DNA of 37,819 nucleotides from an uncultured Flavobacteriaceae bacterium (GTDB taxonomy: Bacteria > Bacteroidota > Bacteroidia > Flavobacteriales > Flavobacteriaceae). The stretch lies in the NCBI GenBank assembly GCA_947500445.1, contig CANMSB010000040.1:1-37819 (forward strand), given 5' to 3'. A program made the position numbers and the translations under genes. Numbering within the stretch: position 1 is the stretch's first letter; the number at the start of each line of letters is the position of its first letter. Below the pieces are notes generated by a model. It saw nothing but the letters and a program-made list of their open reading frames with translations. It had not been told where the DNA came from and did no database searches. Below, one piece after another: positions 16,755-21,571 of the stretch.

Positions 16755-17099
16755 GGGTTTTGATTTTTTGGATTATACCTCTTTAGGACGCTGTTTTGGG
16801 AAAATGGTTTAACCGGGCCAACTTTTTTGGCAGCTTTTTAACGTTCCCATACTCCGCTGATGGAAATAGCGTTCTTGAAAAAATCACGAGATGCCTTATT
16901 TGAAGTTTAATGGTATTGGACGCTCTTGGTGTATCTAATCCATAAACATATAAAACCTCTTGGTCGGCCGGACTGGCGCTCGTACTTTCAAATACATCGT
17001 TCAGACGCAAAAATGGTCACTTGGCACATAATTGCTGCTGAATTGATATGGATATCGTTACATTTCCAAGTAATCTATATTTCAACAAAATAACAGCCT
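16755..17099. other. Intergenic stretch before the LanC gene
   Basis: 345 bases without a supported gene. A 75-codon minus-strand frame (16783-17010) has no recognisable product and no terminator or promoter. Translating the + strand just before the LanC start gave no trace of a LanB dehydratase end. Upstream of 17100 the sequence is AT-rich and presumably holds the LanC promoter; no clear TTTG/TAnnTTTG pair is visible. Confidence 0.4.
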
Positions 17100-18299
17100 T
17101 TGTTAGCACAACACCTTAAAAGCATCAGTCAAAACATTCAGGAAAACTATAAAAAAGAAAAAAATATAGGAGTGCTTTCCGGTATTTCGGGATGCGCATT
17201 GTTTCAGTTCTATTATTCCAAATGGACGGATGTAGATAACCATGCCGATTTGGGTGTGGCCATTATTGCAACGTGTATAGATCGGATCAACAGTGGATTT
17301 TCATATCCGACCTATTGTGATGGAATTGCAGGTTTTGGTTGGGCCATTCAACATTTGACCATGGAAAACTTCATCGATGTGAATTGTGATGAGCTTTTAT
17401 GTCCTTTTGATGATTATTTGTTTTCCCAAATGAAGATAGACCTTTCCACTGGAAAGTACGACTTTTTACATGGGGCCCTTGGCTATGGTTTTTTGTTTTT
17501 AAAAAGGTATCAGTTTACAACGGACGAAAACTTGAAGAAGCGGTACGCGTATTTTCTTGGAGCGCTCTTGACCGAGCTGGACGAACTTGCCCATGAAAGC
17601 GGGGATACGGTAAAATGGGAAATGGTTATGGATCAAGAAAAGCAACAGCCCGTGAGCAACCTTGGGCTATCGCATGGGATGGCGAGTATTGTTAATTTTT
17701 TGTCCCGTCTGTTGCCGTTAGGATTGTATCCGGAAAAGGTGATGCGCCTGCTAACAAAAAGCACGCGGTATATCGTACAACAGCGAGCGGACCAAAGAAA
17801 TACCTTGTCAAAATTTCCCAATGTTATCCAGAACGGAAAAAAGCCAAATTATAACAGCAGATTAGCCTGGTGTTATGGTGATTTGGGAATCGGAATTTCC
17901 CTGTTTCGTGCAGGTTCGGAATTGAAAGATGGCGCTATACAGGCTAATGCCTTGGATGTTCTGATATACAACTCGGGACGACGGTCAAAAAAGAGTACGA
18001 TGGTGGTCGATCCCGGACTGTGTCATGGGTCATACGGGAATGCACAAATTTTTGGTTTTTTGAACAAGGAACATTCAAACGACTCGTTTCAAGAAGCTGC
18101 GGACTTCTGGGTTCGTGATGGTGTTTCCAAAAGCACTTTCACAGATGGTTACGCAGGCTATAAACGTTGGGATGGGGCAACCGAATCCTATCGGCCGAGC
18201 CTTTGCCTTTTAGATGGTGTAGCTGGTATAGGCTTATCTATGATCGACTCCCTTACCGTACAAAAAAACAGTTGGGACGAGTGCTTATTGATCAGTTGA
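17100..18299 (+). CDS. LanC-type lanthionine synthetase (cyclase)
   Basis: 399 residues, the usual size of class I lanthipeptide cyclases. The zinc-site motifs are intact: Cys258 in LAWCYGDLGIG, and Cys308-His309 in GLCHGSYGNA. The family's catalytic-region His is seen at His192 in LGLSHGMASIV. Double GxxG-type repeats of the alpha/alpha toroid are visible (GVLSGISGCALF, YCDGIAGFGWAI, FLHGALGYGF, LLDGVAGIGLS). LanC enzymes add Cys thiols to dehydrated Ser/Thr to form lanthionine rings. The start is TTG at 17100 because an in-frame TAA sits three codons upstream and no ATG follows early. No dehydratase is adjacent. The natural substrate candidate is the precursor peptide 3 kb downstream on the same strand. 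Confidence 0.92.
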   Translation: MLAQHLKSISQNIQENYKKEKNIGVLSGISGCALFQFYYSKWTDVDNHADLGVAIIATCIDRINSGFSYPTYCDGIAGFGWAIQHLTMENFIDVNCDELLCPFDDYLFSQMKIDLSTGKYDFLHGALGYGFLFLKRYQFTTDENLKKRYAYFLGALLTELDELAHESGDTVKWEMVMDQEKQQPVSNLGLSHGMASIVNFLSRLLPLGLYPEKVMRLLTKSTRYIVQQRADQRNTLSKFPNVIQNGKKPNYNSRLAWCYGDLGIGISLFRAGSELKDGAIQANALDVLIYNSGRRSKKSTMVVDPGLCHGSYGNAQIFGFLNKEHSNDSFQEAADFWVRDGVSKSTFTDGYAGYKRWDGATESYRPSLCLLDGVAGIGLSMIDSLTVQKNSWDECLLIS

Positions 18300-18342
18300 A
18301 TTTTTAAAATACGGCACCCCCAACAGTATTTTCCGAGGAAAT

Positions 18343-18444
18343 ATGGTTTGGTCTATACAAATAGAAACAGGAAAGCGTAAACCGATGTATGAGGTGCCAT
18401 TTTTAAAGAAGGAAGTGCTTTACAAAAACAACGATAAAAGATAG
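18343..18444 (+). other. Possible 33-residue peptide or gene remnant
   Basis: Within the 230-bp gap after LanC an ATG-initiated frame encodes MVWSIQIETGKRKPMYEVPF and 13 more residues, ending KNNDKR. The same frame stays open back to just before the LanC stop. The residue mix looks protein-like, but it matches nothing I know. It could be the last part of a deleted gene or chance. There is no recognisable leader or Cys-rich core, so it is not an obvious second precursor. Confidence 0.25.
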
Positions 18445-18529
18445 TTGTGCTTTTAAAAACGGGATAAGGTAATACAGGTCTTAAACAATGATTTTACGAG
18501 CTTACCATTTCGGTATGGAACGGAACTGT

Positions 18530-19291
18530 TTAGCGTAACGAAAAAGTATTGTATTTTTCGATGAGTTCGGACAGTCTTTCCCTGTTTCTAGAGCTCAAGT
18601 TAATAGAGCTACCGTCGGTCAATACGATCGCCTCTTTTTTATGTATGGCTTTAATATGTTCTACGTTAATGAGGTAAAAACGATTGATTCGGTAAAATCC
18701 TTTTGGTTCCAATAGTTTTTCATGATGTTTGAGTGCATTGGAAGCCATAATTTTTTTGCCATTGTCCATAAAAAAAAGCGTATAGTTACCATCCGCTTTG
18801 CAGTATATGAGATTCTTAAGGTCTATTGCCTCGTGGTTGGATCCGGTATGCACTAAAAACCGAGTGCCTTTGGTACTTATAAAATCTTGTAACACACGAA
18901 TTTTAAAAGAGGCGTATAACCGTTCCTTTTTAGTAAGGTATCTGTTAATAATGGTAACCAAATCTTTTTTGTCAAAAGGTTTGCACAAATAGGAAAAAGC
19001 AAAATTTTCAAAAGCCCGTTGCATGTATAGGCCGTGTCCCGTAATAAAGATGACTTCAAAATCCGGATTTGGAAAAGCTTCCAGAATTTCAAAAGCATCA
19101 CCGTCCTTTAAACGAATGTCCATTAAAATTAGATCTGGCCGGTATTCGGCAATACATTTTTTTGAATCGACAACGGTATCGCAAGAAGCAACGATCTGCA
19201 ACGGATGCAGTTCTTTAACGATAATTTTGGTGATGAATTCCAAGGTGTCCTGGTTGTCTTCTATAAGGAGTGTTCGTACCACTTGACCCAT
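18530..19291 (-). CDS. LytTR family response regulator
   Basis: 253 residues. An N-terminal receiver (6-125) has acidic pocket Glu11-Asp12, phosphoacceptor Asp58 in LILMDIRLKDGD, the Thr in FITGH and Lys in CKPFDKKD. A C-terminal LytTR DNA-binding domain (about 150-248) contains KNLIYCKADGNYTLFFM, FYRINRFYLINVEHIKAI and SSINLSSRNRERLSEL. LytTR regulators bind paired 9-bp direct repeats and classically control bacteriocin and pheromone genes (AgrA, ComE, PlnC types). It is divergent from its presumed partner kinase with 46 bases between the starts, and it lies inside the LanC/precursor locus, so regulation of that locus is the likely job. Confidence 0.95.
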   Translation of the reverse strand: MGQVVRTLLIEDNQDTLEFITKIIVKELHPLQIVASCDTVVDSKKCIAEYRPDLILMDIRLKDGDAFEILEAFPNPDFEVIFITGHGLYMQRAFENFAFSYLCKPFDKKDLVTIINRYLTKKERLYASFKIRVLQDFISTKGTRFLVHTGSNHEAIDLKNLIYCKADGNYTLFFMDNGKKIMASNALKHHEKLLEPKGFYRINRFYLINVEHIKAIHKKEAIVLTDGSSINLSSRNRERLSELIEKYNTFSLR

Positions 19292-19337
19292 ACTGTTTAT
19301 TTAGATTTGAAACACCCTTAAAGTAAAGAATATTTCT

Positions 19338-21230
19338 ATGAGAATTGTACTGGCCCTCTGTTTTTTGCTCACTGTTGGCATAACCCACTCCCAAACCAAG
19401 CAATTACAACAAGCGCAGATCGATGCATTTATTGAAGATAGCCTAAACCGAGAGAATTTCGAGCTTTTGAAGCGAAAGCTTTCTTCCGATCCAAACTTGA
19501 AGGGTTGGTCCAAGTATTACTCCAGCAAAGCCTTTTCGTTGTACCGGGCAGGACAGTATGACTCGGCCATTGTTCAGGCAAAAAAAGCGATTTCCAGCTT
19601 TGATGAAAGTGAGCCAAAGTACCATGTTGACGAAAAAAGTCTGTTGCAGGCAAACTATCTATTGGGGTTGATCAACAGACTTCAAAAACAGTATGTAAAA
19701 TCCAATGCGTATCTCTACAGATCATTGGAATTGAATGAAAAGTACCCTTATAAGTACATCGGATACATTATAGGCACGCTAGCGGCCAATCACTTGGCTT
19801 TGGGCAATAATGAAAAAGCATTGCACTATTACCGACAAAACCTTAGGGATTCTATTTGTATGGGGCTTTCCCAGCCATCGGTAGTGGTTCTAACGCGCAT
19901 GGGAGTACTTTATTCCAAAAGTTATTTGAATATGCCGGATTCTTCCTTATTCTATTTTAACAGGGCCAAAAATAGAAGCCTACAAAATGGCTACAGCGAC
20001 AATTTACCCTTTATCTATTGCAACATCGCAAATTTTTACAAGGAACATAATAAGGATTCCACCTTGCATTTTTATCGAAAATCCAAGGAAACTTTCGAAA
20101 CCTACGTTCCCGATTGGAGGGTGGCACCGTCAACCACGGAATTTTTGCAATTGGTAGTCAATAGTTATGTGGATATACATGAGGGAAAAACGCAAGAGGC
20201 GATTGACAATCTAAAATTGGTAACGGACAGTTTAAGGCAAAACGTTACCAATAAAGATGATAAGGATATCCTCGATTTGGCCTACCAACATCTTGTTATG
20301 GCACATGAATATCAAGGAAATCAATCTATGGCCGTCGAGGTACTTAAAGAAAGAAACGGATTTTTAGAAAACTTTCATAAGAAAGAGCTGAAACAGGAGC
20401 TGGCCGAGTTGGAGTTACAATACGAAACGGTGAACAACAAACGGAAAATTTCAAAATTGGAAGAGATTTCAAAGGTAAATGCCAAATTGTTAAAACAGCA
20501 ACGGTTATTGCTGTTGGGTCTTGTTGGTATCCTTTTATTGTCGACCTTCGTTGGATTGCTGTTGTTCCGACAAAAAAACTTGAAAAACAAACTTGAAAAC
20601 GTATCGTTGCAGCAGCGGTTGCTCCGATCTCAAATGAACCCTCACTTTCTGTTCAATGCATTACAAAAGGCCACGATGTTGATTACTGTAAGGCCCGATG
20701 CCGCAAAGGATTATATTATTAAACTGGGTAACCTGCTAAGGTTGACTCTGGAGAATTCCCGAAACGATCGTGTGGCTTTGGCGGACGAGCTTACCGCGCT
20801 GCGCTCCTATTTGGAACTGCAGTCCGATTTTTCTAAAAATTTCGATTTCTATTTTGATGTAGATCAGAACATTGATAAGGAAATGATCGAGTTGCCCCCT
20901 ATGTTGATCCAACCATTGATCGAAAATGCGGTACAACATGGTTTTGGCGCAATAACATATAAGGGTTCCATAAAAATTTTGCTTAAAAAACTAAACCCTA
21001 CCACAATGCTCTGTACAGTGACGGACAATGGTATCGGATATCGTGAAAGTAGTACGGGTTCCATAAGGGACCATCGGTCACTGTCCTTACAGATCGTACA
21101 AGAACGATTGGCCCTATTCCATAGAAAAGCAGGTACATTGCCATTATTTGAAATACGACAAATTTCGGAAGAACCGAATGGACCGGGCGGTACCGAGGTG
21201 AAAATTTCCATTCCTTTTGTAGCGGTATAG
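19338..21230 (+). CDS. LytS-type histidine kinase with periplasmic TPR sensor
   Basis: 630 residues. A signal peptide (MRIVLALCFLLTVGITHSQ) is followed by about 340 residues of helical repeats, including TPR-like units such as YRAGQYDSAIVQAKKAI, ALGNNEKALHYYRQNL and HEYQGNQSMAVEVL. A coiled coil (about 350-385) leads to one transmembrane helix (about 390-412). The cytoplasmic part is a His_kinase domain with phosphoacceptor His436 in QMNPHFLFNALQKAT. It ends in a HATPase with the N box in LIQPLIENAVQHGF and a G box in TVTDNGIG and GPGGTEVKISIP. The 5-TM LytS and 7TM sensor types are ruled out. The precursor peptide gene follows 128 bases downstream. The periplasmic TPR array could bind a peptide; that is inference. 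Confidence 0.95.
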   Translation: MRIVLALCFLLTVGITHSQTKQLQQAQIDAFIEDSLNRENFELLKRKLSSDPNLKGWSKYYSSKAFSLYRAGQYDSAIVQAKKAISSFDESEPKYHVDEKSLLQANYLLGLINRLQKQYVKSNAYLYRSLELNEKYPYKYIGYIIGTLAANHLALGNNEKALHYYRQNLRDSICMGLSQPSVVVLTRMGVLYSKSYLNMPDSSLFYFNRAKNRSLQNGYSDNLPFIYCNIANFYKEHNKDSTLHFYRKSKETFETYVPDWRVAPSTTEFLQLVVNSYVDIHEGKTQEAIDNLKLVTDSLRQNVTNKDDKDILDLAYQHLVMAHEYQGNQSMAVEVLKERNGFLENFHKKELKQELAELELQYETVNNKRKISKLEEISKVNAKLLKQQRLLLLGLVGILLLSTFVGLLLFRQKNLKNKLENVSLQQRLLRSQMNPHFLFNALQKATMLITVRPDAAKDYIIKLGNLLRLTLENSRNDRVALADELTALRSYLELQSDFSKNFDFYFDVDQNIDKEMIELPPMLIQPLIENAVQHGFGAITYKGSIKILLKKLNPTTMLCTVTDNGIGYRESSTGSIRDHRSLSLQIVQERLALFHRKAGTLPLFEIRQISEEPNGPGGTEVKISIPFVAV

Positions 21231-21358
21231 TTTGATTTTTTTTAAACCAAAAAAGAAGACGTTTATACGATCCAACGGTACTTTCAAATCTTTTACCTTC
21301 CCTTTGGACATGTTCATCGGTATCTTCTTGTATTATTAATTGTTAAATATATACCGAT

Positions 21359-21571
21359 ATGAAAAAAATGAAAAAAATTGGCCTTTCCTTAAACAAGAGG
21401 GTCATTTCTAATTTGGAAGCCAAAGAATTGAACGGTGGTGTAGGTTCCGGTTTAAATATGCCCGTGAATTCCTGTAATGCCGATCAAAACCCATGTTACG
21501 GTGATGGCCCTGGCAATTTAACGGAGAACGGTTGCAGGAGCGGTGGAATGGCCAATTGTAAAATGGAATAG
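21359..21571 (+). CDS. Putative class I lanthipeptide/RiPP precursor with GG leader
   Basis: 70 residues. The first 27 (MKKMKKIGLSLNKRVISNLE, then AKELNGG) match the Bacteroidota lanthipeptide/ComC-like leader pattern: a basic start, LSLNK-type motif, amphipathic helix with E-L at -4/-3 and a double Gly at 26-27. The predicted core (28-70) is rich in Gly, Asn, Ser and Cys and holds exactly four Cys (39, 46, 59, 67) and four Ser/Thr (30, 38, 55, 61), which allows up to four thioether rings. A LanC cyclase on the same strand and a LytTR two-component system are its neighbours, and a strong terminator follows. An alternative is a non-lanthionine double-glycine peptide, such as a disulfide bacteriocin or pheromone. 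Confidence 0.8.
   Translation: MKKMKKIGLSLNKRVISNLEAKELNGGVGSGLNMPVNSCNADQNPCYGDGPGNLTENGCRSGGMANCKME

Follow-up and report, generated by a model that had tools for sequence, protein, structure and literature searches.

The window, that is, the whole stretch of 37,819 nucleotides that was analysed, lies on contig C40 of a Flavobacteriaceae genome (G000; 5.18 Mb in 177 contigs, 99.82% complete, 0.18% contaminated). The locus of interest contains the following features.

16982..16993, + strand: 12-mer GTACTTTCAAAT before LanC, a possible shared control site (one of two exact copies in the genome)
17100..18299, + strand: LanC cyclase (PF05147 LANC_like, 2.6e-40; zinc ligands C258, C308 and H309)
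18530..19291, - strand: LytTR response regulator (Response_reg and LytTR domains)
19338..21230, + strand: TPR histidine kinase, divergent from the regulator (TPRs and His_kinase PF06580)
21278..21289, + strand: 12-mer GTACTTTCAAAT before LanA (the other exact genome copy)
21359..21571, + strand: class I lanthipeptide precursor, LanA (NF038153, 22.8 bits against a cut-off of 22)
21359..21439, + strand: leader with an LxLxKx5L motif and GG at its end (read from the sequence; motif as given in PMC7268733)
21582..21614, strand not assigned: terminator-like stem-loop after LanA (15-pair stem; the scan listed the - strand only)

The reading frames at the locus are open. The LanC is 399 amino acids long and begins at a TTG; the original prediction had placed its zinc ligands at Cys258 and Cys308-His309, where they were indeed found intact, and these three residues showed no variation among the 27 class I-type LanCs that were aligned. 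Its top NCBIfam match was LanM, with a score below the cut-off, which agrees with a remark in passages of PMC7268733 (Walker et al. 2020) that certain Bacteroidetes class I LanCs are similar to LanM cyclase domains. Among PDB matches, LANCL1 and GCR2-type proteins ranked above NisC. A scan of the genome contigs of named relatives with the window LanC gave no match, and a search of plasmids and phages gave distant LanCs only (27% identity or less among the matches listed); there is therefore no sign of a plasmid or phage origin.

The precursor has the predicted 70 residues and double-glycine leader: 27 residues of leader, closed by GG, are followed by a core of 43 residues with four Cys, three Ser and one Thr. 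A class I leader is thus combined with Cys and Ser/Thr in the core, and passages of PMC7268733 describe Bacteroidetes class I precursors as having an LxLxKx5L leader ending in GG. The leader score is marginal, as the cut-off of the class I leader model NF038153 was passed by a narrow margin; in a search of the whole G000 genome with this model the precursor was recovered at 6.2e-4. It had no match in Pfam. We nevertheless consider it more than a chance open reading frame, because in three other genomes of the genus the orthologous kinase is likewise followed by a peptide that passes NF038153 (see below).

It had been noted that the window holds neither a LanB dehydratase nor a C39 transporter. 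The genome search places Lant_dehydr_N, Lant_dehydr_C and C39 peptidase domains on other contigs only, and they are therefore absent from the window. The dehydratase turned out to be encoded elsewhere, one of three explanations that had been offered. The sole PF04738 LanB of G000 (C15:56603-58558, 1.0e-143) adjoins a separate PF14028 protein (1.7e-71), so that LanB is split in this genome. C39 exporters (PF03412) are encoded on C15 and C2; the genome thus has both a GG at the end of the window leader and exporters of C39 type. On C15, C39 and HlyD lie on the + strand, and the LanB C-part and LanB on the - strand; neither BLAST nor tblastn (E<=10) detected a LanC at this locus. From LanB to the nearest end of C15 is 49.4 kb, and from the window LanC to the nearest end of C40 it is 17.2 kb; the two are therefore at least about 66 kb apart. 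LanB and C39 on C15 and the window genes on C40 do not form a single cluster. G000 encodes three LanCs, on C31, C40 and C2, and two leaders over the NF038153 cut-off, on C31 and C40; the C31 leader-bearing precursor adjoins its LanC. No leader-type peptide was found near the C2 LanC, whose neighbourhood contains a C39 exporter followed by two Cys-free GG-leader peptides (L013 15658-15997). As a side observation, the C39 exporter encoded beside LanB (L011 5955-8156) shares 75 to 89% identity with its counterparts at seven LanB loci from other genomes, and 57% with that of G148; this is higher than for LanB itself, which is mostly 45 to 58% identical across those loci.

The recurrence of this arrangement was examined in 10 genomes of the genus and 249 of the family. 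Within the genus, a single LanB was found in each of 6 of the 10 genomes, and these six are also the ones with class I-type LanC; LanC lies beside LanB in five of them, the exception being G000. In the family sample, 13 genomes had LanC and 21 had LanB; a leader passed the cut-off in 12 genomes, and 15 had one at E<=0.01. LanB accompanied 11 of the 13 LanC genomes (Fisher, about 6e-12) and 11 of the 12 leader genomes (about 9e-13). Over both samples, we counted 13 class I-type LanCs that are detached from LanB, spread over nine genomes that each have a single LanB: three in G000, two each in G254 and G255, and one each in G102, G138, G177, G179, G217 and G251. Detachment was called by contig, and draft contigs could conceal closer placements; in G102, LanC and LanB are on one contig, about 284 kb apart. 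A leader-type peptide lies 0.07 to 3.1 kb from 11 of the 13 detached LanCs, most islands of genus-mates being judged with our own leader model rather than NF038153, and the peptides of G102 and G217:C26 being below the NF038153 cut-off; no such peptide was found near G000:C2 and G177:C76.

Several proteins were excluded from the class I-type counts. These are the LanC-like protein of G249, which has a very long branch and a lipoprotein-like N-terminus (L097 8292-9653) and occurs in a genome without LanB; G251:C126, which is weak (47.5 bits); G179:C10; G179:C2 (a 975-residue frame, LanM-like); the second, weak LanC of G039; and that of G079, which had no BLAST match to the LanCs of G000. G179:C10 and G079 carry another LanC type (420 amino acids), each near a protein starting with FFHGCGIPP repeats (L056 and L103). 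LanC without LanB was found in G122 (99% complete), with a C39/HlyD pair near the LanC (L061), and in G079 (81% complete). In G190, which lacks LanB, a leader passes the cut-off, and its peptide is Cys-free. Conversely, LanB without LanC was seen in 10 of the 249 genomes (G010, G026, G045, G050, G085, G123, G127, G131, G195 and G224). Finally, G179 has 45 leader-type peptides (own model, at least 12 bits) at 18 scattered loci (L063-L080) and one LanB; at least 24 peptides on 11 contigs have NF038153 E<=0.01, with 30 of 110 candidates scored. They resemble dispersed prochlorosin precursors, yet are of class I, and the genome also encodes the LanM-like and other LanC frames.

The LytTR regulator and the divergent TPR histidine kinase were confirmed in domains and strands, the kinase having one hydrophobic segment from about residue 387. 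A genus search gave as top kinase matches outside G000 those of G251, G253 and G255 (44 to 45% identity), and the window regulator is 44 to 46% identical to the regulators of these genomes. Each of these three genomes has a divergent regulator, and an NF038153-passing leader peptide starts 130 to 133 bases past the kinase, versus 128 in the window. Among themselves the three are 71 to 82% identical and were therefore counted as one lineage; the genes that flank this trio of regulator, kinase and precursor are unlike those of the window. No LanC was found beside the trio (19.9 kb is visible in G255, and contig ends limit the view in G251 and G253); in these genomes the LanC adjoins LanB, away from the trio. 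Comparison with relatives bears out the order of the trio and not the adjacency of a LanC. The original prediction that a LytTR system between cyclase and precursor is an unusual layout holds for the layout itself; judging from the genus-mates, the regulator and kinase appear to go with the precursor and not to be a divider between the two.

This linkage was compared with other loci. No leader peptide was found at six less similar kinase loci, nor at the next kinase paralogue of G000 itself (on C10, 34%), and none of 28 leader loci outside the genus (L063-L090) had a match to the window kinase or regulator at 1e-8. Within the sampled set, the linkage is therefore specific to the window kinase type. 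A scan of the genome contigs of named relatives with the kinase gave 19 distant matches, mostly from Bacillota and covering the catalytic part only.

Whether cyclase and neighbouring peptide belong together was also examined. For 14 chosen pairs, LanC identity was correlated with similarity of the neighbouring cores (r 0.74, 0 of 10000 permutations); the pairs comprise 10 detached and 4 LanB-linked among the 27 class I-type LanCs, loci with several unlike peptides being mostly omitted. With two near-copies removed, r was 0.45 (41 of 10000 permutations). G254:C4 has almost the same core as C31 of G000, although the LanCs are 44% identical; these two LanCs are sisters on the tree (100/99). On this tree, in which the rows of G249 and G039 are long branches, detached and LanB-linked LanCs are interleaved: the labelling of the detached group takes eight changes, of which at least four are forced. 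The detached LanCs showed no significant clustering (101 of 500 shuffles were as low).

In the upstream regions, GTACTTTCAAAT lies 107 to 118 bases before LanC and 70 to 81 before LanA, with no further copy in G000; a reversed control pattern also has two genome copies. Of 2010 upstream pairs, 15 had some 12-mer in common, as did 111 of 50000 simulated pairs. The element was spotted by eye and the background test is post hoc; as a candidate shared control site of LanC and LanA it is therefore suggestive only. A further element, TATTATTAA, at -27/-28 before LanA, is kept in the window, G251 and G253.

Taken as a whole, the locus is fairly likely to be a detached part of a class I lanthipeptide pathway of Bacteroidota, with dehydration and export in trans. 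The precursor would be made from the gene at 21359, and its Ser/Thr dehydrated in trans by the sole LanB of the genome, split over two C15 proteins. The window LanC (17100) would then close the thioether rings, and the C39 exporter adjoining the C15 LanB would cleave after GG and export the product. The LytTR regulator and TPR kinase, tied to the precursor, would turn it on or sense it. We infer the mutual action of the proteins, ring formation, the action of LanC on the window precursor and the kinase signal from the genes and their positions. The biochemistry is probably that of an ordinary class I system; less ordinary is the layout, in which a single dehydratase is accompanied by cyclase-peptide islands at several detached sites, and one of these islands has a two-component system linked to it. 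In related bacteria as well, a number of dispersed cyclase-peptide pairs appear to be served by one dehydratase. A broader model can be put forward as a tentative possibility: each genome would have one dehydratase/exporter hub and mobile spokes of precursor and cyclase, some with their own two-component system reading the finished peptide, the window being a regulated spoke and its product an autoinducing signal.

It is also conceivable, if rather unlikely, that the trio and the LanC are independent units and neighbours by chance, in which case any one of the three LanCs would cyclise the precursor, or none at all. Since no LanC lies beside the trio in the three genus-mates, where it adjoins LanB instead, the window LanC may be such a chance neighbour. 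It also branches first in a clade (99/96) with the LanB-linked LanCs of G251, G253, G254 and G255; from this position, it may once have been part of a LanB operon, and could be a general cyclase that has left it. Chance proximity is, however, at odds with the leader-type peptides found no more than about 3.1 kb from 11 of the 13 detached LanCs, and with the 12-mer common to the LanC and LanA upstream regions.

The two other explanations offered at the outset fare less well. It is improbable that the LanC has another job, for example as a LANCL-like thiol addition enzyme, and that the peptide is not a lanthipeptide. The ranking of LANCL1 and GCR2-type structures above NisC is in its favour, as are Bacteroidales LanC-like proteins that occur without LanB and are unrelated to lanthipeptides according to passages of PMC10352776; the curated clusters described there lack the zinc motif, whereas the window protein keeps its ligands. 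Moreover, the precursor passes the leader model, LanC co-occurs with LanB, and most detached LanCs have a leader-type peptide close by. Loss of the dehydratase from the cluster was rejected, as one LanB is present in the same genome. A decayed remnant that is no longer functional is very improbable indeed: nothing more than the absence of LanB from the window speaks for it, and open frames and intact zinc ligands, together with the LanB on C15, speak against it.

The preferred reading, a detached class I pathway, can be set beside known systems. Pinensins of Chitinophaga pinensis are class I lanthipeptides from Bacteroidota, made with a split LanB from one contiguous cluster. Compared by description only, the window shares with them class, phylum and split LanB, and differs in not being contiguous. 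In prochlorosins (class II) precursors are likewise encoded far from the modifying enzyme; there, one LanM performs both steps, whereas here the dehydratase would be common and the cyclases would travel with the precursors. In nisin-type autoinduction by NisRK, too, a two-component system is encoded beside the lanthipeptide precursor. Here, unlike NisRK, the regulator is of LytTR type and the kinase a TPR protein of PF06580 type, and the tie is gene linkage only. Reports on Pedobacter lusitanus by Caetano (2020) and Bothwell (2021) could contain related observations.

The leader type, maturation by GG/C39 and a split LanB have all been described before: passages of PMC7268733, which mention pinensins and prochlorosins, give for Bacteroidetes class I lanthipeptides the LxLxKx5L/GG leader, the C39 protease, split LanB and LanM-like LanC. 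The class I call in those passages required LanB within seven genes of LanC, whereas the LanB and exporter of G000 are encoded on a different contig from the window LanC; unlike the class I systems that they describe, the precursor here is tied to a LytTR pair. Proteases encoded outside clusters appear in passages of PMC8960859. Among the matches listed in searches of an open-licence paper library, which mostly lacks subscription papers, none described LanC-precursor islands that are detached from a common LanB.

If the preferred reading is right, searches for LanB beside LanC overlook part of the class I lanthipeptides of the family, and the sharing of a dehydratase among precursor-specific cyclases becomes directly testable. 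Should the model of one hub with mobile spokes be true, ring pattern and signalling would evolve apart from dehydration. A conserved linkage of kinase and precursor would give a candidate peptide-signalling system in Bacteroidota.
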